From NCBI RefSeq assembly GCF_010501095.1, contig NZ_QVMP01000005.1:62001-126000 (forward strand): a stretch of 64,000 bases of DNA. Reading direction: 5' to 3'. Under the pieces are notes generated by a model, which saw only the letters and a list, made by a program, of their open reading frames with translations, searched no databases and was not told the DNA's origin. The stretch's first letter is position 1. The number at the start of each line of letters is the position of its first letter. Shown in pieces: positions 51,577-62,926 of this stretch. A program made the position numbers and the translations under genes. The stretch is from Dysgonomonas sp. 520. Lineage in GTDB: Bacteria > Bacteroidota > Bacteroidia > Bacteroidales > Dysgonomonadaceae.

Positions 51577-51986
51577 CTGTCTAAATATTTTAATACATAT
51601 TGGGTTGCAGCATCGTTGACTGATGTTACAAAGCTCTCCCCTGCAAAAACTTTTACTATTTCTATCTGTCCGATAATCTTACTATTAAATTCATTCAAAT
51701 CTTCAGCCGGAACCCACAATTCATTATGGATAAAACCTCCGACATTGTGAACTTCATATTTTTGTAGGTAACTTGCAGGCAGATCAAACTTGGTTACAAT
51801 ACCACAGTAGCCTGAGAATTCATCCTTCGTATTCCATTTCTCAGCTATCTGTTCTGCATATTCCTGATTGAGTACAGGATAAAATATCGGCTGCCACTCC
51901 AATCGAGGAGGAAAAGCTTTAAAATCCGAATCAATTATTAATTGTAGTTCTTTCAGACCTATTGGCCTGTATAGTGTTGTTTTCAT
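51573..51986 (-). CDS. Small protein of an ADP-ribosylation-associated family
   Basis: A 137-residue soluble protein: [24 protein letters not shown], then [18 protein letters not shown], a [15 protein letters not shown] strand and [20 protein letters not shown]. Proteins of this pattern are often named ADP-ribosylation/crystallin J1 in databases, although they lack the glycohydrolase fold; I recall this naming but cannot check it. It overlaps both neighbours by 4 bases, between the macro-domain gene and the ADP-ribosylglycohydrolase, so a role in the same pathway is likely. Confidence 0.75.
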
Positions 51987-52864
51987 TCTTTCCAGTTCTT
52001 TACAATTTCAGAAACCATATCTGTAATTTTTAGTTCATCAAACCGATACATTAAGTCATCCGATATTATTTTTGTTCCATATAATGAACCTACAATTTGC
52101 CCGAACATAGAACATACAGTATCTGTATCTCCTCCCAATTTAATCAGTTCAGTAAGAATCGTAGCATAATCAAGCTTGTTTATCTTCTGAGCGGCAAATA
52201 CAGCCATAGGTACGGAATCAACCACGTATCCGCTCGATTTATATTGCTTACCTATTTCGGATATAGATAACCTCTGCAAAGGAATTAACTCAATGAATCT
52301 ATCCCTCACTCTTGTATCAGGAATTTTTGCGATTATATAATCTATCAAACCGTTATCTCCTTTCCAAATTCCATCTATGGCCGCCTTTATAGAATAATAA
52401 ATTGCCAGTGCACCGGAATAAGCTTCGTCATTACGATGTGTAATCGTGCATATATCCCTGATGGTTAGTTTTGTGATATACTTTTTAAAAGCCAATGGTG
52501 CTATGCGCATAGCCGCTCCGTTCCCTGCCGCATATTCTCCTGATCTACCAACCAAAGCCCAATGTCCTCCGACCTGCAACTCTCTCAATGCTTTCAAGGT
52601 ACTTGCTCCCAAACCAATCAGTTTCTTATGACTGTACCAATATAAAAACCTTTCAGAAACTTTTTCAGGTTTTACTTCGATTGAGTTGTAGATGGCCTCG
52701 CAGGTTGCCAATGTTAATTGGGTATCATCAGATATTACCCAGTCGAAATTGAAAGTTATATCCTGATTATTTTCAGCACCTTCGTATTTAAAACCAATAG
52801 CATCGCCTATTGCTCCGGCAATTAAGCACCCCTTTAGCCTTTCCTTGATATCAATCGAAGTCAT
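51983..52864 (-). CDS. ADP-ribosylglycohydrolase
   Basis: A 293-residue dinuclear-Mg ADP-ribosyl-acceptor hydrolase (DraG/ARH family) that strips ADP-ribose from protein, or possibly nucleic acid. The N-terminal LIAGAIGDAIGFKYEG and WVISDDTQLTLATCEAI supply the first metal ligands (the Asp-Asp-Thr). The C-terminal LGGDTDTVCSMFGQIVGSLYG supplies the second set. Length is normal. It overlaps the next gene by 4 bases and follows a truncated relative by 16 bases. Confidence 0.94.
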   Translation of the reverse strand: MTSIDIKERLKGCLIAGAIGDAIGFKYEGAENNQDITFNFDWVISDDTQLTLATCEAIYNSIEVKPEKVSERFLYWYSHKKLIGLGASTLKALRELQVGGHWALVGRSGEYAAGNGAAMRIAPLAFKKYITKLTIRDICTITHRNDEAYSGALAIYYSIKAAIDGIWKGDNGLIDYIIAKIPDTRVRDRFIELIPLQRLSISEIGKQYKSSGYVVDSVPMAVFAAQKINKLDYATILTELIKLGGDTDTVCSMFGQIVGSLYGTKIISDDLMYRFDELKITDMVSEIVKNWKE

Positions 52865-52880
52865 AAACTATACATCTATA

Positions 52881-52964
52881 TCATTTTCTAAATTCCACAG
52901 GAACGCCTAAAGCGTCACCCACGGCAACACCGAATAAGGCGCTATGTATTATTCCTCCTCTCAT
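52881..52964 (-). pseudogene. Remnant N-terminus of a second ADP-ribosylglycohydrolase
   Basis: The start codon at 52964 overlaps the stop of the NrtR gene (TAATG). It opens a 27-codon frame encoding MRGGIIHSALFGVAVGDALG and then VPVEFRK before a stop. This is the conserved N-terminus of bacterial ADP-ribosylglycohydrolases, different from the intact gene that follows 16 bases on. It is best read as the truncated relic of an original NrtR-glycohydrolase pair. Confidence 0.8.
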
Positions 52965-53665
52965 TATAATTCAAAATAAAATCCTGTCTTTGTCAATTCT
53001 TCGTATCTGTCTTTATCGAAACTGTATAGCTTAGGTGCTCTGTTACGCGCTCCACGTTGCATTTCACCTGTATCAATCAATAGACCATAACTTAATATCT
53101 TTTTGCGGAAGTTTCGGTCGTCCAGATCGGTTTGTAATACGGTTTTATATAAATGGAACAGGTCAGGCAAGGAGAACTTCTCTGGAAGCAATTCAAAGCC
53201 TATGGGTTGATATTTTATTTTTCCTTTCAGCCTTTCTTTAGCTACCTCTAATATTTTCGCATGGTCGAACGCCAGTTCAGGAGCATCAGAAATTGAAAAC
53301 CATTTGATATTTGTTGCATCCATGCCAGCTTGTGCATTGTAATCCGATAGCTTTACCAATGCATAATAACCTATGCTGATAACCCGGAAACGGGGATCTC
53401 GTTTTATATCGGAGAATGTATAAAGTTGTTCCATAAAGATATTATCGAGACAAGTCTCTTTCTGCAAAATACGCTTAGCACATTCTTCTGCTGTTTCTTC
53501 TTCGCCGACAAATCCTCCGGGCAGAGCCCATTGTCCTATGAATGGCTCAATAGATCTTTCTATCAACAATACTTTTAATTCGCCTTCGTCAAAACCAAAT
53601 ATAACACAGTCTGTAGTGACCGCCGGACGGGGATATTCGTATGTATGTTTTCCTTGTTGTTCCAT
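52964..53665 (-). CDS. NrtR-type Nudix-winged-helix regulator
   Basis: A 233-residue regulator with an N-terminal Nudix domain (about 10-145) and a C-terminal winged helix (about 150-230, ending DRYEELTKTGFYFEL). NrtR proteins sense ADP-ribose and repress NAD-related genes. The Nudix box is degenerate: after GGFVGEEETAEECAK the expected RE-U-x-EE-x-GU reads RILQKETCL, so key catalytic Glu residues are missing, as expected for a sensor. It heads the ADP-ribose operon (relic, glycohydrolase, small protein, macro domain). Confidence 0.88.
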   Translation of the reverse strand: MEQQGKHTYEYPRPAVTTDCVIFGFDEGELKVLLIERSIEPFIGQWALPGGFVGEEETAEECAKRILQKETCLDNIFMEQLYTFSDIKRDPRFRVISIGYYALVKLSDYNAQAGMDATNIKWFSISDAPELAFDHAKILEVAKERLKGKIKYQPIGFELLPEKFSLPDLFHLYKTVLQTDLDDRNFRKKILSYGLLIDTGEMQRGARNRAPKLYSFDKDRYEELTKTGFYFEL

Positions 53666-53838: not shown

Positions 53839-54756
53839 CTAAAAACTACCATAGTTTACTTGGAAACAAGACAATTTCAATTCTTTACGCCAAAGATCAA
53901 CTACCTGATCCCTATCATCTAACACAAATTCAACAAAATATTTATCCTTAATTTCAGCCTCATAGATTTCGCTCTTGATGACGGAGTCTTTCCGAAAGTC
54001 TTTTGATTGACGCATCCAAAGTTGATGATAGGGAATGTTATGCTTATGCAAAAATCTGACTGTCGGTTCTCGAAAACGATCTTCCCTGCCTGAAACTAAG
54101 AGAATTTCATATCCTTCTTTGGCAAAAACTTTCAACGTGTTGGCAACAGGCACATTCAAGTCATCTTCATCACTTGTACTGGCATCAAAGGGATTGCGGT
54201 GATTCATCAAAGCTAATGTGCCGTCCAGATCGCAAATGATTGCTTTGCGTAGAGAAGCATCCTGTTCGATTGTTGTTACACGATTGTCTAGTAAAGGGCG
54301 GGTTGAAAAATCAAAAGTTTTTTTCAATTCTTCCAGCTCTTTCATATAACGCTTCTGCACATTGGCCGGAATATATTTTCCGGTTTCCTTATTCCGCTTT
54401 TCACAACGTTCAGCAATCGTTTTTGCATCGGCTTCAAATATTTTAAATGATATATCTGCCAGATGGTTGAATTTTTCTATATAATGGTTCAGATATTCAG
54501 CCTTACAGTGAGTTGCGTCAAGTAATACATTACACCGTCTGCGAAGCAACGTCTCTATGGATGAGTCTATCATTTCTGTAATCATACCTTCTTCATGTAA
54601 TGGAAGGTTTGAGTAGGTGAAATGCATAGTACGGAAATCATCACGACAGAGACGCATCCAGTTTTCTTCGGTACGGATAAAGTATTTGGCGAAAGTGCTT
54701 TTTCCTGATCCAGGAGCACCTATTAATATCAATAATTGTGGATTTTTTCTTTTCAT
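53839..54756 (-). CDS. T4-type polynucleotide kinase-phosphatase (RNA end healing)
   Basis: A 305-residue two-domain enzyme that prepares broken RNA ends for ligation. The N-terminal kinase has P-loop GAPGSGKST (residues 13-21), RDDFR and LLDATHC. It adds a 5' phosphate. The C-terminal HAD-type phosphatase has CDLDGTLAL (about 172), the SGRED motif and FVLDDRDQVVDLW. It removes 3' or 2',3'-cyclic phosphate. The order and length match phage T4 Pnkp (301). It is the last gene of the operon, directly after the HEPN-like gene. Confidence 0.93.
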   Translation of the reverse strand: MKRKNPQLLILIGAPGSGKSTFAKYFIRTEENWMRLCRDDFRTMHFTYSNLPLHEEGMITEMIDSSIETLLRRRCNVLLDATHCKAEYLNHYIEKFNHLADISFKIFEADAKTIAERCEKRNKETGKYIPANVQKRYMKELEELKKTFDFSTRPLLDNRVTTIEQDASLRKAIICDLDGTLALMNHRNPFDASTSDEDDLNVPVANTLKVFAKEGYEILLVSGREDRFREPTVRFLHKHNIPYHQLWMRQSKDFRKDSVIKSEIYEAEIKDKYFVEFVLDDRDQVVDLWRKELKLSCFQVNYGSF

Positions 54757-55644
54757 CTATTTCTCACTTTTATTTCTATACTTATCATATGCAGTATCAT
54801 CGAAGACTCTACCCTTGTATTTATTTTCAAGATGTTTAATCTCTTTAATTCCGCGAAGATTATCTATAAAGAATTTATATTCTTCTTTTGGCAATTTTAA
54901 AAAAGTAACACATTCAAATGCCATCTGAGTGCAGTAAGTTAATACGTCACTTAAAAATCTCAGGTAATGTCCAATATTAGCTTTGTTCTGTTCTTCTTCT
55001 GAACGACTATTTCTTTCTCGAATAATTAAAACACCAGTTTCATCTCCATGACTAATATGACTTGCTGTCCGATAACTATATGATAATAAATCAAATGTTG
55101 GCATAGGAGAACCATTATAACTTTTTGATAACGAATTTAATATTTCAGAAAAAGACCATTTCTGTTCTAGCTTTTGGCGCTCCTTTTTAGGCCATTTCTC
55201 CCTTAATAATCTTTCCTTTTCTTCAGTCAGGACTATAGGCGAAAAAGCTATTTGATGAACTTCACTATCAGGGGCAGTACGTAAATTCTTCTTAGCTTGT
55301 TCCGATTCCTTTAACTCTAGTATTTCGGACAGAAGATTCCAATACTCATTTAAGCGGAGTTCTTTTTCTTTCTGAGTAGCTGCTGAAGTTATGAAGGCTA
55401 ATTTCACATATGCTTCCATTGCTGAACGTAGAACTATCTCTGCATCCCATAACCTCCAATTAGTTGTAAGAAACATTACACACTCCAGTCTCTCAAGAAT
55501 AAATTCTACTAAAGGGTAGATAGGTTCCAGCCTATCCGAATGATCTTTTATAATCTCAAATAATTTTAAATTGTTTCTGTTTATCGCACCAATATAACTC
55601 TCTGTGATTGGCCTTTGGTCATTATTCCATGAATCCATATTCAT
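54757..55644 (-). CDS. HEPN-like protein (DUF5677-like) in the RNA-repair operon
   Basis: A 295-residue, mostly helical protein with no signal or membrane segment. It resembles the DUF5677 group: an early LRSAMEAYVKLAFI helix, a long charged middle and YRTASHISHGDETG. The Arg and second His of that motif are spaced R-x6-H, close to the R-x4-6-H of HEPN ribonucleases. That makes an RNase or RNA-binding role possible, but the assignment is inference. It starts 8 bases after the ligase gene, and its stop abuts the kinase-phosphatase start. Confidence 0.6.
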   Translation of the reverse strand: MNMDSWNNDQRPITESYIGAINRNNLKLFEIIKDHSDRLEPIYPLVEFILERLECVMFLTTNWRLWDAEIVLRSAMEAYVKLAFITSAATQKEKELRLNEYWNLLSEILELKESEQAKKNLRTAPDSEVHQIAFSPIVLTEEKERLLREKWPKKERQKLEQKWSFSEILNSLSKSYNGSPMPTFDLLSYSYRTASHISHGDETGVLIIRERNSRSEEEQNKANIGHYLRFLSDVLTYCTQMAFECVTFLKLPKEEYKFFIDNLRGIKEIKHLENKYKGRVFDDTAYDKYRNKSEK

Positions 55645-55652
55645 CGTATTTT

Positions 55653-56837
55653 TTATAATCTTTTATCTAGTCCAGCCTCAGCGGTTTCACCCATAATACG
55701 GTCAAAAACCAGATTTTTCAGGAAATAGTTTTCTTTATTTATCTCGTAATAGGGGACTTTCAATAGTTCCCAGTTGAGCATCCAGTCGTTGATGGAACAC
55801 TTCAATTTACGTCCTATACTTCGTTTCTGGACATAATAATCATATTGATCGTAAAAATTAACACCATAAATCATCGTCAAATATTGGTTATTCCTCACTT
55901 TGAATGCCGGTGGCATATCTTTAATAAATGCCTGACGAGGTTTGATTACTATTCCTTCTTCGTTATCCTGCTCAAGGGCAAAGAACCATGTGTATACTCT
56001 TTCTATTGCGCTATCCAGTTCTGTTTCATTATTAATTGTCAGATGAAGAAATTCGTCGTCGTTGACATCTTTATAACTAAGATTATCATTTACGAATTCC
56101 TCCGATCCATCGTCAAGTACTTTTTTCAGGATATTGAAAGGCTTAAAATAGATATCTCCCTGTTGCCCGAAATGATTAATCTGAGTCTGGTAAATATCAA
56201 TACTTTGCTTGTAAACATCTAAATCCAATACTTTAAATTCTGACAGTGATTCATACTGACGAAGAATGTGATGCGGATATTTTGCCCTGAACTCTTTTGA
56301 AGACAACATATTTTTATCTTCAATGAATTGCTTATAGATTTCTGTATTTTTTACTTCTCCAATTTTCTTATACAAGTCTGTATTAGCCAGATGTTCGCAA
56401 TGATTTTGATGTGCATTAATATATCCTCCAAATTCATTTTCGATCAATCCTTTGCCCAACGCACTCCACGGCATTAGTTCGGATTGAATGATAACAAGGT
56501 TTAATCCATCCCAGTTGAAACGGGCATGTAATTCGCGGTAGGCTTCTATCGCTGAATCCAAATCTATATGGTCTATCTTGTGCCCGTTGCGGCTTACAAA
56601 ATAAGTATCTTCCAAATTCTTACTCAGATAGATATCACAATAAGACCCCATATATTTTTTTTCGACAACAATCTCTTTCACACCACTATCGTAAAAATAA
56701 CGGATAGCTTTGTCAATACTTTCTATTTCTCCTTTTTCAGGAGATTTTGGTGCCGGAGAGATAGTTGGAGAGAAGGCATTAACCTTATTCTCGCAAAACC
56801 AGTCTATTCTATTTTTTAATCTTCTTAGGTCTTCCAT
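55653..56837 (-). CDS. RNA ligase, bacterial Pnkp ligase-domain type
   Basis: A 394-residue ATP-dependent RNA ligase. Motif I is VVEKKYMGSY: the nucleophile Lys is followed by YMG, as in the ligase domain of Clostridium-type Pnkp (K-x-MGS-R) and not the usual KxDG. Motif III-like VSRNG, IIQSELMPWSALG, motif IV EEGIVIKP and motif V PAFKVRN follow, then a long C-terminal domain. In classic bacterial Pnkp this module is fused to kinase and phosphatase; here it stands alone. I prefer ATG 56837, because the upstream ATG at 56864 overlaps hen1 by 25 bases. Confidence 0.88.
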   Translation of the reverse strand: MEDLRRLKNRIDWFCENKVNAFSPTISPAPKSPEKGEIESIDKAIRYFYDSGVKEIVVEKKYMGSYCDIYLSKNLEDTYFVSRNGHKIDHIDLDSAIEAYRELHARFNWDGLNLVIIQSELMPWSALGKGLIENEFGGYINAHQNHCEHLANTDLYKKIGEVKNTEIYKQFIEDKNMLSSKEFRAKYPHHILRQYESLSEFKVLDLDVYKQSIDIYQTQINHFGQQGDIYFKPFNILKKVLDDGSEEFVNDNLSYKDVNDDEFLHLTINNETELDSAIERVYTWFFALEQDNEEGIVIKPRQAFIKDMPPAFKVRNNQYLTMIYGVNFYDQYDYYVQKRSIGRKLKCSINDWMLNWELLKVPYYEINKENYFLKNLVFDRIMGETAEAGLDKRL

Positions 56838-56839
56838 AA

Positions 56840-58141
56840 TCAATTCTTTCTTGTTATTACACACCCTTGAGTCGGCTGTATTCCGTTCAAACTATCTCCC
56901 AATTGGAAAAATTCAATATTCATATCTTTGCCTTCGGTACATTCTGTAATCAGATCAAGAAACTCTTGTCGAGTTGGCTCAAAGTCATGATCATCATGCC
57001 TCATTTCACTATCCATATTATAGAACTGATTAAATTCTGCATTTGGTGTTGTGATAATCATCTTGTTGAAATTGAGGAACAATGCTTTCCGTATCAGTTC
57101 TTTCGCTACATCTATCGGGTTGTGTTCGATAACCTCCGTTAACAAGATATTTACACGATCTTTAGAATCGAATTGTTCCAATGAATTCATAAATATGAGA
57201 TTATCCTCATCATATCTTCGTGAGATATTATCAGCCAGTCGCTCAAATTTCTCATCATGGTCTACAGCATAATATACAGATGAAAACTTCTTATTCATCA
57301 TCTTTTTATAATATGTAAACTCGCCACAGCCAATATCGAGGATCGGAATATCCTTTTCCAGCAGATTGGTAATGAAATGTATCCTCTGTAAGTACGTTCC
57401 CTGTAAAACCAGATTCGCATCCAAACCGCATTTAGCCAGATAGTTTTCAAAAATTGGCTTCAACTCATTAAACTGGCGTTCCGATTTCACGGCTTTCATA
57501 ATAAACAGGTAGAAAACAAAATAAGGAACGCTGTCAATATTAGTCAATATGCGCCCGTACTTTTGAGCAAGGCTATCATCGATATAGGTAAACATTCCGT
57601 AATCGTTAGTCACATGTGAGAATAGCGACACTAAAGCCAGCAAATTGAACGCTTCGAATATACTCTTTGCTGAGATAATCAGTTTGAAAATACGGTTCGA
57701 TTGCTGTACAACCTCTACCTCATCGAAATATTTAGAAGGAAGGAATCTCCCGTTCCTATACCAGTTAGAATCAATATAGAATGATGGTATTTCTATTGTA
57801 CAACTTTCAGTATCAGCTTCTCCCTGAGTAATGCCAAGCCATTGGATATCTTTTGACGCGAACTCTTCCTTGCTTTTGAATATATGTCCGAACAGTTCGT
57901 TGCAGATATGTAATACCGCCAAAGGTGTGCAATAGCTCTGGTAGTCTATCTGATTAGCTTCCTCAGGCATATAGCTATATTTCGTGTCTTGAAATACTAC
58001 CTCGTAATAATTCTTATTGACTACATTTCCAACAATCTGTCCGTTCTTCAATGGCTTAAAATATAGTCCATTGTCAGTATTCGGATTCTTGTATAGAATG
58101 TCAAGCAGTCGGTCGTTATCGCTTTTTATTTTTAAAATCAT
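56840..58141 (-). CDS. hen1: RNA 3'-terminal 2'-O-methyltransferase Hen1
   Basis: A 433-residue bacterial Hen1. The N-terminal half (about 1-230) is the ligase-activating domain. The C-terminal methyltransferase has the SAM motif PILDIGCGEFTYYKK (about 256) and the metal-binding set LTEVIEHN and TTPNAEFNQFY, with MRHDDHDFEPTRQEF. Hen1 methylates the 2'-OH at the 3' end of a cut tRNA before Pnkp seals it, so the repaired bond cannot be cut again. It is the first gene of a four-gene operon with ligase, HEPN-like and kinase-phosphatase genes. Confidence 0.93.
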   Translation of the reverse strand: MILKIKSDNDRLLDILYKNPNTDNGLYFKPLKNGQIVGNVVNKNYYEVVFQDTKYSYMPEEANQIDYQSYCTPLAVLHICNELFGHIFKSKEEFASKDIQWLGITQGEADTESCTIEIPSFYIDSNWYRNGRFLPSKYFDEVEVVQQSNRIFKLIISAKSIFEAFNLLALVSLFSHVTNDYGMFTYIDDSLAQKYGRILTNIDSVPYFVFYLFIMKAVKSERQFNELKPIFENYLAKCGLDANLVLQGTYLQRIHFITNLLEKDIPILDIGCGEFTYYKKMMNKKFSSVYYAVDHDEKFERLADNISRRYDEDNLIFMNSLEQFDSKDRVNILLTEVIEHNPIDVAKELIRKALFLNFNKMIITTPNAEFNQFYNMDSEMRHDDHDFEPTRQEFLDLITECTEGKDMNIEFFQLGDSLNGIQPTQGCVITRKN

Positions 58142-58167: not shown

Positions 58168-58203
58168 CAAAGAAAAACAGGAAGTGCGCAGTCTTTTTGC
58201 GCA
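58168..58203 (-). promoter_or_regulatory. Promoter and operator of the hen1 operon
   Basis: The palindrome TGCGCA-N7-TGCGCA (58185-58203) is followed, 9 bases further along the minus strand, by TTTCTTTG (58168-58175), a near -7 box with T for A at position 2. The arrangement and much of the sequence match 60924-60959. The weak -7 box together with a palindrome just upstream suggests an activator site. Confidence 0.7.
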
Positions 58204-58213
58204 GATTGATAAA

Positions 58214-58855
58214 TTATATATTCTCCCATATTAATATCTTTGCAAGATTCTCAAATCCCATTTCTTCTTTATCATTAATGTCATTTAGCTTTACAGCAAA
58301 TTGATCTAATTCTTTCATAAGATTATCTACAGCTATTTCTAATGAAGCTCGATCAATCTCAAATTTTTCGATTAACGGAGTAGGTACAAAATGTTCATCA
58401 AATTCATCAACAGTGAGATCAAACAATATTTTATTCCTTTCTACTTCAAAAATGGGACATGGATGACCTTGCCAGAATAGTGTGGAATCACCTTTTGATA
58501 ACTCAATCCAACTTCCGATATCTCCCAAATCACCGCAACATTGGGGGTACAATAGATCCTCACCATCAACATTAAGTATATATCCGCCATCAAAAGGACA
58601 TATTTGATCTGAGTCCCTGTCTTCAGTTCTATATTTTATTTGTAGCAAGAGATTGTTCCCATTTATTTTTGATACTTCATAAAAACTAGAGCCTTTTGAA
58701 TAAGATTCTATTTCTGAAAAACCGTTTGTAGCAAGACATTGACGATTATAATCTTCCCATTCATCAGCATATTCCCAATAAGGCCCTTTCTTCGGCATTT
58801 CTACTTTATCTGAAATACGGAACAATTCTATTACCGGTATTAATTTTATATTCAT
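58214..58855 (-). CDS. Hypothetical protein encoded with the RlaP genes
   Basis: A 213-residue soluble acidic protein (MNIKLIPVIELFRISDKVEM... GPYWEYADEWEDYNRQC). It has a CPFDGGYILNVDGEDLLYPQCCGDLGD stretch with four Cys that might bind a metal, and a C-terminal helix. I do not recognise the family. A TTG at 58864 is an alternative start, but ATG 58855 is preferred. It starts 11 bases after rlaP copy 2 and is the last gene of that operon. Confidence 0.6.
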   Translation of the reverse strand: MNIKLIPVIELFRISDKVEMPKKGPYWEYADEWEDYNRQCLATNGFSEIESYSKGSSFYEVSKINGNNLLLQIKYRTEDRDSDQICPFDGGYILNVDGEDLLYPQCCGDLGDIGSWIELSKGDSTLFWQGHPCPIFEVERNKILFDLTVDEFDEHFVPTPLIEKFEIDRASLEIAVDNLMKELDQFAVKLNDINDKEEMGFENLAKILIWENI

Positions 58856-58866
58856 AGTTATCAACT

Positions 58867-59925
58867 TTACTTATACAACTCCTCCCTCATCTCCACTAAT
58901 ATTCTTTCTGTTTTCTGCTTATCTGGAGTATCTGGTAATGTAGATATCATGTAATATGACTCTATATTTTCCATCAACTTATCAGCTATAGCTAATAAAT
59001 CATCGTAATCCATGTTTCCTGCTTTTATATCCAGTAATTCTCTTCGGTTAGGTCGTTTTACGTTTAGTTTTCCATCCCGCAATATCTCTTCCGCAACCTG
59101 TAAAAGGCGTATCGTATGCATCATGTTCTTAGAGTCGTAATTCTTACCATGATTCAGATTTGTCTGATAACGATTGTCGTTGCGTTCTTCCACCCAATCC
59201 CAATATTCTTTGTATTCTTTGCAATAGAGCGAATAGGCTTCCATATTCCAGAACAGGTAGGCAACTGCTTGCTCTCCTTTTGGTATAGATGATAAAGATA
59301 CCTCGTTAGCAGTTTCTTTCACGGCTATACCATGATAACCGTATTTATTATCTGCATCATAGAATAAAGCATACACCCCTTTGGCATGAGAGATTGAACT
59401 CAATCCGCAGAACTCTTGACTTAATCCGTTCTTATCGAGCCATTCTTTTACAAGAACAGACTGGTAATTATCCATTACATAGCAAAAATCTAATACAGTT
59501 CTGCGTTCCTTTTCTATCGGGTTTACTACCTTCTTTTTGTATCCTCTGGCTTTCCGTATCTGTGTCAGAGCATATCCGGCAAAAGTGTCTTTGCAGAGCT
59601 TGGATAAGAACATATTTATATCTAGCCTCTCCATTAGCGGATGTTTGTACAGTATGCATTCATTGGGCGAAGCCAATAATTCCAATATATTCGGATTGTT
59701 TTTACAGAGCAGTTCAACAAAACGCCCCAATTCATAATAAACCTCATCATTGGTTTCATTACTTACCTGAGGAATATACTCTAATCCATAAAATTGTTCT
59801 TTTGGTAGATAGAATACCCCTTTCAGATCGGTATCTGATTGAGGTGTATTCAATCCGTATGCCTTACTACCGCTTATACATTCGAAAAGCAGCAATCCTT
59901 TATCCTTTATTTCTTGTATAGTCAT
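58867..59925 (-). CDS. RlaP-family nucleotidyltransferase, copy 2
   Basis: A 352-residue predicted nucleotidyltransferase of the polymerase-beta fold, RlaP family (RNA-repair-associated). The N-terminal motif GSKAYGLNTPQSDTDLKG gives the GS pair and the two metal-binding Asp. A helical C-terminal region follows (KRPNRRELLDIKAGNMDYDDLL). The predicted reaction is addition of nucleotides to an RNA end, but no substrate is established. It overlaps the first copy by 4 bases (ATGA), so translation is coupled. Confidence 0.82.
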   Translation of the reverse strand: MTIQEIKDKGLLLFECISGSKAYGLNTPQSDTDLKGVFYLPKEQFYGLEYIPQVSNETNDEVYYELGRFVELLCKNNPNILELLASPNECILYKHPLMERLDINMFLSKLCKDTFAGYALTQIRKARGYKKKVVNPIEKERRTVLDFCYVMDNYQSVLVKEWLDKNGLSQEFCGLSSISHAKGVYALFYDADNKYGYHGIAVKETANEVSLSSIPKGEQAVAYLFWNMEAYSLYCKEYKEYWDWVEERNDNRYQTNLNHGKNYDSKNMMHTIRLLQVAEEILRDGKLNVKRPNRRELLDIKAGNMDYDDLLAIADKLMENIESYYMISTLPDTPDKQKTERILVEMREELYK

Positions 59926-60671
59926 TTCAATATTATTTTTCTAAAAAATATATCAGCTTCTTCTTTATCAAAAGATTTTCGTTCCATCTTTGCAGAGGCT
60001 TCCATACAATAATCAAAAGTTATATCTATCCACTTCCTTAAGCCTGCATCTATCTTTGTCAAATAACTTTCAGAAGCTGTTGATTTCAAATCTATCAAAG
60101 ATAAAACCTTTTTTTGTAAATCGTCCGACAACAAATCCATTAATAGATAGATGCTCATTGGAGCTATTGTGTTCTTTTTTGCACACCATAGAGCCGCAAG
60201 TAAAGGACGAAGTACATAAAACAGTTTCTTTATTTTTATATCTTCACCTTGTATCGTTTCCAATGCCCCCTTTGCTATACCCAGATAGTGATGTATATTA
60301 CTTCTTGGACAAAAATAGTTTTGACAGAATTGCCATAAATCATCCTTAAACCTTTTATCTTCCCTGTATATGACAGGCGATTGTAACCACTCGAAAGGAG
60401 TAGTGTTCGACTTGGTTATCAGTTGCAATACTTTCGATATATCCCAACCATATATATCAAGCTCATGATTTACTGGAAAAGACAAATGACCTTTTTTTGT
60501 CTGTATGCTTAGGTAATCCTCAAGCTTTTTTATATATATGAAACGTACATCGTAATCGCTATCAGGTGAAGGAAATCCCCACGCCCGACTACCTGATTCA
60601 CAAGAATAAAGTATTTTTATTCCATGATCTTTCTCTATTTCAGTTAGTTTATCTTGTATTATTGTTTTCAT
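59922..60671 (-). CDS. RlaP-family nucleotidyltransferase, copy 1
   Basis: A 249-residue RlaP-family protein. The motif SGSRAWGFPSPDSDYDVRFIY (residues 22-42, GS and DxD) defines the active site. The rest is helical with ELDIYGWDISKVLQLITKSN, typical of the family. It is shorter and clearly different from copy 2, so the two may act on different RNAs. Its start lies 18 bases after the tRNA-like RNA, which therefore forms its leader. Confidence 0.82.
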   Translation of the reverse strand: MKTIIQDKLTEIEKDHGIKILYSCESGSRAWGFPSPDSDYDVRFIYIKKLEDYLSIQTKKGHLSFPVNHELDIYGWDISKVLQLITKSNTTPFEWLQSPVIYREDKRFKDDLWQFCQNYFCPRSNIHHYLGIAKGALETIQGEDIKIKKLFYVLRPLLAALWCAKKNTIAPMSIYLLMDLLSDDLQKKVLSLIDLKSTASESYLTKIDAGLRKWIDITFDYCMEASAKMERKSFDKEEADIFFRKIILK

Positions 60672-60689: not shown

Positions 60690-60892
60690 TACCCCCGATG
60701 AGATTCGAACTCACATTCTCCTTTTGGGAGCAGTACGGCTCTAAATGCGCTTCCCTACTCATAAAATGAATACTTTCGGTGCATCTGCAAAGTCTACCCG
60801 CAACAACGCGCAGTCAAGAAACGGGGATGTCCGCACACTCTACGGCCAGTCTAATCTTTTTCCGCAGGCTTTTCCTTTTAAGCTACAAGGGC
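60690..60892 (-). ncRNA. tRNA-like RNA with a 123-nt anticodon loop
   Basis: Read on the minus strand, the ends fold exactly as a class II tRNA. Acceptor: GCCCTTG (60892-60886) with CGGGGGT (60697-60691), 7 bp with three G-U pairs. Then U8 A9, D-arm GCTT/AAGC with an AAAAGGAA loop (GG present), nucleotide 26 C, anticodon stem TGCGG/CCGTA (60866-60862 with 60738-60734). A long variable arm CTCC/GGAG, T-arm GTGAG/CTCAT with loop TTCGAAT, and discriminator A (60690) complete it. CCA is not encoded. The normal 7-nt anticodon loop is replaced by 123 nt (60861-60739) with its own hairpins. It could be a tRNA mimic, a Y-RNA-like RNA or an interrupted tRNA. Confidence 0.75.
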
Positions 60893-60923: not shown

Positions 60924-60959
60924 CAAAGAAAGATGGGTGGTACGCAGCTTTTTTGCGTA
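60924..60959. promoter_or_regulatory. Shared operator and minus-strand promoter of the tRNA-like RNA/rlaP operon
   Basis: Palindrome TACGCA-N7-TGCGTA (60941-60959), and 9 bases on along the minus strand TTTCTTTG (60924-60931). Same geometry as 58168-58203. The palindrome lies between two divergent operons. Confidence 0.7.
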
Positions 60960-61906: not shown

Positions 61907-62926
61907 ATGCCTGTAAACCGCAACGCCTTAATACGCTATAAAACAATAGATATTTGTTTGCGTAACAAGTACAGACAATGGACACTCGAAGATCTGATAG
62001 ATGCCTGTTCTGATGCTCTATATGAATATGAGGGTATAGATAAAGGTATCAGTAAACGTACGGTTCAAATGGATATCCAGATGATGCGTAGCGAAAAATT
62101 AGGTTATAATGCACCTATCGTTGTCTATGATAATAAGTACTATAAATACGAAGATGAAGACTATAGTATAACCAATACACCGTTGTCGGAACAAGACCTG
62201 AAAACAATGTCTGAAGCTGTTGAGGTATTACGTCAGTTCAAAGGATTTTCTTACTTCTCAGGCATGGGCGATATTGTCAGTCGTTTGGAAGATCATGTGA
62301 CTTCAGCAAAACAAAAGACCATACCTGTTATTGATTTTGAAAAGAATGAAAGTCTGAAAGGGTTGGATTACCTAGATACGATATATCATGCCATTGTCAA
62401 CAAACAAGTCTTAAACCTAAAATACCGCTCTTTTAAAGCCCGTTCTGCCAGTACTTTCTTATTCTACCCCTATCTGCTGAAAGAATACCGCAATCGTTGG
62501 TTCGTATTCGGACGAAGAAAAGGGAATTTAATTAATTTGGCTTTAGATAGGATACATAATATCGAAATTGCCGAGAAAGAAAGATTTGTAGAAAATGACT
62601 TGTTCGATCCTGAAACTTTCTTTGAAGATATGGTTGGAGTTACAAAAAATGTAGGAATGAAAACCGAAACTGTACGTTTCTGGGTAGATAAGCAAAATGC
62701 ACCTTATGTACAGACCAAGCCTTTCCATAAAAGCCAGAAAGTAGTAGCGGAACGCGAGGATGGCTCTAAAGTATTCGAGATAAATGTAGTTGTCAATCAA
62801 GAACTGCAACGCGAATTTTTCGGATATGCAGATACCATAAAAATACTTTCGCCTAAATCGTTAGTTGATTTTATGGGATGGAAATTCAGGCTGGCAAAGG
62901 AAATGTATAATGAGAATACAGAGTGA
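61907..62926 (+). CDS. WYL-domain transcriptional regulator
   Basis: A 339-residue regulator. The N-terminal winged HTH (about 1-80) includes LEDLIDACSDALYEYEGI and ISKRTVQMDIQMMRSEKLGY. The WYL sensor domain (about 150-230) contains RNRWFVFGRRKGNLINLALDRI, where WFV stands in place of WYL. A WCX C-terminal extension follows. WYL domains are thought to bind nucleotide or nucleic-acid ligands and often control defence and repair genes. Its position beside the RNA-repair operons and the shared palindromes make it the likely controller of both. Confidence 0.92.
   Translation: MPVNRNALIRYKTIDICLRNKYRQWTLEDLIDACSDALYEYEGIDKGISKRTVQMDIQMMRSEKLGYNAPIVVYDNKYYKYEDEDYSITNTPLSEQDLKTMSEAVEVLRQFKGFSYFSGMGDIVSRLEDHVTSAKQKTIPVIDFEKNESLKGLDYLDTIYHAIVNKQVLNLKYRSFKARSASTFLFYPYLLKEYRNRWFVFGRRKGNLINLALDRIHNIEIAEKERFVENDLFDPETFFEDMVGVTKNVGMKTETVRFWVDKQNAPYVQTKPFHKSQKVVAEREDGSKVFEINVVVNQELQREFFGYADTIKILSPKSLVDFMGWKFRLAKEMYNENTE

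Follow-up and report, generated by a model that had tools for sequence, protein, structure and literature searches.

A conserved tRNA-like RNA associated with a putative WYL-controlled RNA-repair regulon in Bacteroidota

To our knowledge, the Y RNAs are essentially the only non-coding RNAs linked with RNA repair in bacteria, and their own role in it is open. Those of the YrlA family (Rfam RF02553), known from Salmonella rsr-yrlBA-rtcBA and from Deinococcus Rsr-Y RNA-PNPase, carry tRNA-mimicking D- and T-arms in the permuted order T-arm, acceptor hairpin, D-arm, together with a long basal stem that binds Rsr/Ro60. The tRNA-like domain of YrlA has been suggested to act as a competitive inhibitor of a nuclease (PMC7790460) or as an effector of PNPase (PMC8394870). 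In the cyanobacterium Anabaena, ordinary tRNAs of the trn operon and the RNA ligase gene rtcB belong to one stress regulon under the RHH repressor TrcR (PMC10272220).

Here we describe a tRNA-like non-coding RNA of 203 nt, encoded on the minus strand (60892->60690; residue n corresponds to coordinate 60893-n) of a 64,000-nucleotide stretch of DNA from Dysgonomonas sp. 520, hereafter the window. We consider it, with a probability of about 0.6, a conserved trans-acting, non-decoding tRNA mimic in a WYL-controlled RNA-repair regulon of Bacteroidota. It shares the tRNA-mimicking arms of the Y RNAs and the pairing of tRNA-type and RNA ligase genes seen in Anabaena, and differs from both in its architecture or its putative regulator. 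The features of the locus are collected in Table 1.

Table 1. Coordinates of the tRNA-like RNA, its putative control sites and the neighbouring genes in the window
Feature	Coordinates	Strand	Remarks
WYL-domain transcriptional regulator (WYL + WCX), putative controller of the operator	61907..62926	+	relatives 81-82% identical in G630 and G601
Operator TACGCAAAAAAGCTGCGTA, inverted repeat, putative WYL-regulator site	60941..60959	-	RNA 48 nt downstream
TTTG of putative -7 box	60924..60927	-	13 nt past the operator, the regulon-wide spacing
Acceptor stem, 5' strand GCCCTTG	60886..60892	-	partner strand 60691-60697; 7/7 pairs compensatory in 11 members
D-arm GCTT-AAAAGGAA-AAGC	60868..60883	-	4-bp stem, 8-nt loop with GG; 100% paired in 11 members
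Hairpin H1 at the anticodon-arm position: CTGCGG, 16-nt loop AAAAAGATTAGACTGG, CCGTAG	60840..60867	-	residues 26-31/48-53
Helix P4, 5' strand GTGCGG	60831..60836	-	partner 60733-60738; 100% paired, 4/6 pairs compensatory
Inner domain, 92 nt	60739..60830	-	near-invariant unpaired blocks TAGA.TTT.CAGA.GCACCGAA and AGTA.GGAAGCG.ATTTA.AG (alignment columns)
Small variable-arm hairpin CTCC-CAAAA-GGAG	60718..60730	-	three aligned pairs, 100% paired, 2 compensatory
T-arm GTGAG-TTCGAAT-CTCAT	60698..60714	-	5-bp stem; 100% paired, 2 compensatory
Acceptor stem, 3' strand CGGGGGT, and discriminator A	60690..60697	-	rlaP1 ATG 18 nt on; CCA not encoded
rlaP1, RlaP nucleotidyltransferase (PF10127, 238 bits)	59922..60671	-	
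rlaP2, second RlaP-family nucleotidyltransferase	58867..59925	-	
216-aa protein, family not found	58214..58864	-	
Second operator TGCGCAAAAAGACTGCGCA with promoter	58185..58203	-	ahead of hen1
hen1, RNA 3'-end methyltransferase (Hen1_N)	56840..58141	-	
rnl, RNA ligase (PNKP_ligase)	55653..56864	-	
DUF5677 protein	54757..55644	-	
pnkp, polynucleotide kinase-phosphatase	53839..54756	-	

The sequence-only reading of this DNA had proposed a canonical class II tRNA fold at 60690-60892. The minus strand carries all of its tRNA-type elements, in the order acceptor 5' strand, D-arm, H1, P4 domain, small variable-arm hairpin, T-arm, acceptor 3' strand, with a TA spacer between the acceptor 5' strand and the D-stem. 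A strict scan of the 64-kb window (acceptor 7/7, TA, D-stem 4/4 with GG in its loop, T-stem 5/5 with TTCRANY) returned this RNA as its sole match, and 0/150 randomised 64-kb windows gave one. As in a class II tRNA, all helices of the cloverleaf (7-bp acceptor, 4-bp D, 5-bp T with a TTCRANY loop) and the elbow nucleotides are in place and a discriminator base follows. What separates the two is the loop at the anticodon position, 16 nt in the window RNA and 12-17 nt in its relatives in place of the 7 nt of a decoding loop, a variable region of about 110-125 nt across the family, and the failure of ARAGORN to call a tRNA gene at this place. No Rfam family matched at curated gathering cut-offs, and a relaxed Rfam search found the tRNA model alone (15 bits, E up to 5). 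Like tmRNA, the RNA has tRNA-like ends around a large internal domain; unlike tmRNA, it keeps a D-stem and has neither a conserved open reading frame nor a gathering-level Rfam match. A coding or tmRNA reading was rejected, as a tag-peptide frame is absent and stop codons interrupt each forward frame of all 11 family members; judged by these sequences, the family is non-coding. The folding energy of the single sequence is not unusual (z of -0.36 and -0.65) and thus uninformative, so that the proof rests on comparison with homologues.

Ten further full-length members, which make 11 with the window RNA, were found in other Bacteroidota, both Bacteroidales and Flavobacteriaceae. Homologues were reached through a search with the neighbouring RlaP protein and then with the RNA ligase of a related operon, the surroundings of the matches being scanned for T-arms. 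This protein-guided scan of loci yielded five full-length homologues in Flavobacterium-type genomes (a genus assignment that is itself uncertain), and a covariance model built from these and the window RNA returned four strong hits from a sample of 326 Bacteroidota genomes, with three new members in genomes G057, G084 and G088. A 22-base core pattern, AGTAGGGAAGCGYATTTAGAGC, hit 3 of 344 Bacteroidales genomes, all of them true members and those in G601 and G630 new, while the reversed pattern, run as a control, hit none of the 344. Scores of the eleven members range from 134 to 249 bits (183.5 bits for the window RNA) and their lengths from 190 to 203 nt. Weak hits of the covariance model, of 83 nt and similar, were excluded; several that were inspected (L190, L191 and L199) contained ordinary tRNA clusters. 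The spread of the family is modest, which tells against the trans-acting mimic proposed here. A viral or plasmid origin was considered and dropped: the core pattern was not found in viral contigs, and blastn against plasmids and phages gave zero matches to the RNA.

Compensatory change carries the case for the structure. In nine members, aligned by fitting to the covariance model, every one of the 278 cells in the six tRNA-type helices holds a standard pair, and compensatory change is seen at 16 of 31 pairs. This covariation exceeds 500/500 shuffles (0/500 reach it) and every slid control. In an independent MAFFT alignment of all eleven members, 337/341 cells are paired and 19/31 pairs are compensatory. 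Paired substitutions in homologues, on which the sequence-only reading had staked its fold beforehand, are thus present, and its idea of a tRNA mimic linked to an operon for RNA repair is supported, the mimic being conserved. At the level of sequence, the tRNA-like RNA of the window is thereby confirmed as real. It is hardly credible that the element is a degenerate tRNA, a remnant of mobile-element attachment or a chance fold; ARAGORN does miss it, and decayed copies exist (a short copy in G285 and a decayed second copy in G601, L222 9650-9855), but the strong compensatory change, the invariant loops and the linkage to an operator speak against all of these. The two alignments refute them, and the empty randomised windows tell against chance folding in addition.

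Where the RNA departs from a tRNA, the earlier picture needs correction. An anticodon stem of residues 27-31 with 155-159, its loop alone replaced by 123 nt, had been proposed; that pairing holds in only 75% of cells, and the 5' strand pairs locally instead, closing H1 with its 16-nt loop, so that the main insertion lies in the variable region. H1 directly follows the D-stem, exactly at the anticodon-arm position, and we read H1 rather than P4 as the anticodon arm, both helices being real. The variable region spans residues 54-178 (about 125 nt) and comprises P4 (residues 57-62 with 155-160, GTGCGG with a distal CCGTAC), which encloses the large variable-region domain, an inner hairpin (96% paired, 3/5 pairs compensatory), near-invariant unpaired blocks that are fixed across the family, and then the small variable-arm hairpin. 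The A-rich loop of H1 varies in length and sequence apart from its A-run; conservation sits in the variable-region domain.

This distribution bears on the idea that the RNA is a sentinel, a deliberate substrate of tRNA-cutting toxins that would be cut in the enlarged A-rich H1 loop and whose fragments or 2',3'-cyclic phosphate ends would serve the WYL regulator as a signal or would tie up the enzymes of repair. Such a role would suit a tRNA body with an enlarged loop, the predicted binding of nucleotides or nucleic-acid fragments by WYL domains (PMC4012209) and the activation of RtcR by tRNA fragments (PMC7790460). We regard it as improbable, however, as the presumed target loop is variable outside its A-run while the variable-region domain is conserved instead, and as the known analogue YrlA is reported to be uncut (PMC7790460). 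A bolder proposal takes that domain as its starting point. The RNA would represent a new class in which a tRNA body carries a giant variable-region domain whose strictly conserved unpaired blocks form the functional core (sensor, catalytic or protein-recruiting), and would report or direct the repair of tRNA damage as the RNA subunit of the WYL-controlled response; we put this forward tentatively.

A relation to Y RNAs had also been suspected, in the form of a distant YrlA variant, with a look for a Ro60 (TROVE) gene beyond the 64 kb suggested as a check. There are likenesses: both RNAs are encoded with RNA-repair genes, and in G601 and G630 YrlA-like RNAs (35-42 bits, where the gathering score is 69) stand directly before the RNA in one putative transcript. 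In G630, G057, G1227 and G1117 a Ro60 gene is a direct or close neighbour, and G601 carries one at another place in its genome. These observations would fit a Ro60-binding Y RNA with a canonical instead of a permuted tRNA-like module. Such a variant is nevertheless quite improbable, since Ro60/TROVE (PF05731), looked for throughout the genome of the window, was not found there, nor in G084, G088, G1004 or G1210. Moreover, the order acceptor-D-H1-variable-T-acceptor is unpermuted where YrlA has T-acceptor-D, the ends form a 7-bp acceptor stem in place of the terminal Y stem, the extra domain of about 110-125 nt has no YrlA counterpart, and the Rfam gathering score is not reached. In the genome of the window the YrlA model gave sub-threshold hits only (best 25 bits against 69), as it did in most control genomes. 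Because the order of elements and the end structure differ and the genome is without a TROVE protein, the window RNA is, by the tests made here, outside the YrlA family. Separately, probable Y RNAs with the common motif CAAGTGYCGTARANAAGNGTTACTTCG, a permuted tRNA module and a terminal CTTGTT were observed in L163, L166, L167, L170, L172, L222 and L223; where tested they score below the Rfam YrlA cut-off, and Bacteroidota Y RNAs seem to be under-represented in Rfam.

Upstream of the RNA lies what appears to be a shared switch. Two operators are present in the window, one ahead of the RNA and the second ahead of hen1; only the site at 60941..60959 matches TACGCA-N7-TGCGTA exactly. Across 35 loci, most of which (with a few exceptions) were picked for carrying the WYL regulator gene, this repeat occurs at 75 exact sites against 0.05 expected, with 0 in 26 related loci without a WYL gene, and in 70/75 sites TTTG follows 13-14 nt after it. 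The sites stand ahead of rtcB, rlaP1, hen1, RNA-ligase and Ro60 genes as well as tRNA-like RNAs. An operator precedes the RNA in 10/11 members, and the eleventh lies inside a putative operon headed by one. We define the WYL-operator regulon by operator plus TTTG, and the window RNA has both. Because the operator tracks the WYL gene, we infer that the WYL protein binds the TACGCA-N7-TGCGTA repeat and is its putative controller. WYL domains are predicted to sense or bind nucleotides or nucleic-acid fragments (PMC4012209).

The genes that follow the RNA differ from locus to locus. In the window the order is rlaP1, rlaP2, the 216-aa protein gene, hen1, rnl, the DUF5677 protein gene and pnkp. We know of no RNA component described for the Pnkp1-Rnl-Hen1 complex. 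The window operon encodes a Hen1, a ligase and a kinase-phosphatase of the kind found in that complex (PMC4411300). NrtR-type Nudix regulator and ADP-ribosylglycohydrolase genes adjoin the repair operon at 51983-53665, which suggests an NAD/ADP-ribose link. In relatives the RNA stands ahead of rtcB (G057), of Ro60 (G1227 and G1117), of a SWIM zinc-finger gene (G630), of an SPFH gene 882 nt away (G088), or alone. An intrinsic-terminator-like hairpin lies directly 3' of it in L165 (G1170), and another operator within about 30 nt past it in L168, L170 and L172. In G601 the RNA is on contig C1, Ro60 and rtcB are on C21 and the WYL gene is on C6, with operators ahead of the RNA, Ro60 and rtcB; no RNA-repair homologue was found in the 18 kb surrounding the RNA.

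These arrangements weigh on the leader role proposed by the sequence-only reading. Leaders that mimic tRNA control some synthetase genes, and the fold could likewise lie in an mRNA 5' leader and there be bound by enzymes of RNA repair, or cleaved by those of tRNA processing, such that free or damaged tRNA would control translation of the operon. The 18 nt between the 3' end of the window RNA and rlaP1 count against action in trans and are compatible with a cis role, as are the promoter directly upstream and the further tRNA-like or tRNA elements in leaders of repair operons. Yet the RNA has no conserved place ahead of one gene, and the terminator-like hairpin, the intervening operators and the isolated RNA of G601 all disfavour a leader, which we hold to be unlikely. 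The lack of a fixed downstream gene is a pattern unexpected for a single-gene cis leader and fits a trans-acting member of a regulon; since the RNA is followed by a variety of genes, stands by itself, or lies on a separate contig, action in trans is most likely. We accordingly rank a decoy or scaffold in trans first, a cis leader second and a sentinel substrate third.

Several other RNA elements were observed in the RNA-repair loci. Ordinary tRNA arrays or pairs, with some odd tRNA-like units, occur directly ahead of rlaP1, SPFH or rtcB genes in G703 (L127 8662-9990), G847 (L128 13700-15020) and G719 (L132 5858-6026), preceded by an operator in G719 and G847; the same response may include entire tRNAs. 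A second type of tRNA-like RNA, with a GGGGCAGTAGCTCAG-type body and inserted repeats GGTCAA-N6-7-TTACTTC, was seen at L136 7885-8306, L137 1626-1742 and L168 4340-4460 and in L171 and L173-L176. It lies upstream of the gene for a 746-aa protein of unknown family (predicted structure at pLDDT 40, too poor for use), a homologue, at about 25%, of a 585-aa protein encoded at further repair loci. A tRNA-like RNA of about 107 nt (L067 6387, L068 9527, L069 9543) separates the gene for this 585-aa protein from an rtcB-like gene, and repeated hairpin-like units GGCAAAGRRAGTTCCTATA ... TTACTYYCCGC lie downstream of the RNA. Finally, a 53-nt minihelix in G088 (L071 3800-3850), a minimal acceptor plus T-arm (GTAGAAG ... 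ATGAG TTCGAAT CTCAT CTTCTAC), lies directly ahead of a T4 RNA ligase 2-like gene.

The same RNA, its pairs kept by paired mutations, stands beside the same switch in ten other species, and it is therefore probably a working part of the RNA-damage response of these Bacteroidota. On the family, its structure, its association with a promoter and its changing neighbours, all established computationally, we build the following proposal for its transcription, processing, partners and function as a trans-acting tRNA mimic. Because its transcription would begin just behind the WYL-type operator-promoter, the RNA would be made together with the RNA-repair enzymes, presumably upon RNA damage. It would fold as a tRNA body, with acceptor, D-arm, T-arm and TTCGAAT loop, and would probably be matured like a tRNA. 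The tRNA body may then occupy a partner in the damage response that binds tRNA, be it an anticodon nuclease, an enzyme of repair or a particle of the Ro60/PNPase type; the domain in the variable region may bind a second partner and so recruit or display something else. By analogy with what has been proposed for the tRNA-like domain of YrlA, the RNA could act as a decoy or scaffold during tRNA damage; as Ro60 is missing from this genome and the four others named above, a Ro60 scaffold cannot be general.

In the literature searched we found no description of this RNA, and an earlier one is possible in Chen 2014 or Burroughs & Aravind 2016, which lay outside that search; we regard it as previously uncatalogued and assign it to the tRNA-mimic RNAs of RNA-repair loci. 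With its strong covariation, defined promoter, putative regulator and relatives in Flavobacterium, the family adds a second, structurally distinct tRNA mimic of RNA repair beside the Y RNAs. It makes a direct test of decoy, scaffold and sentinel roles possible, and likewise of the control of RNA repair in bacteria that lack RtcR.
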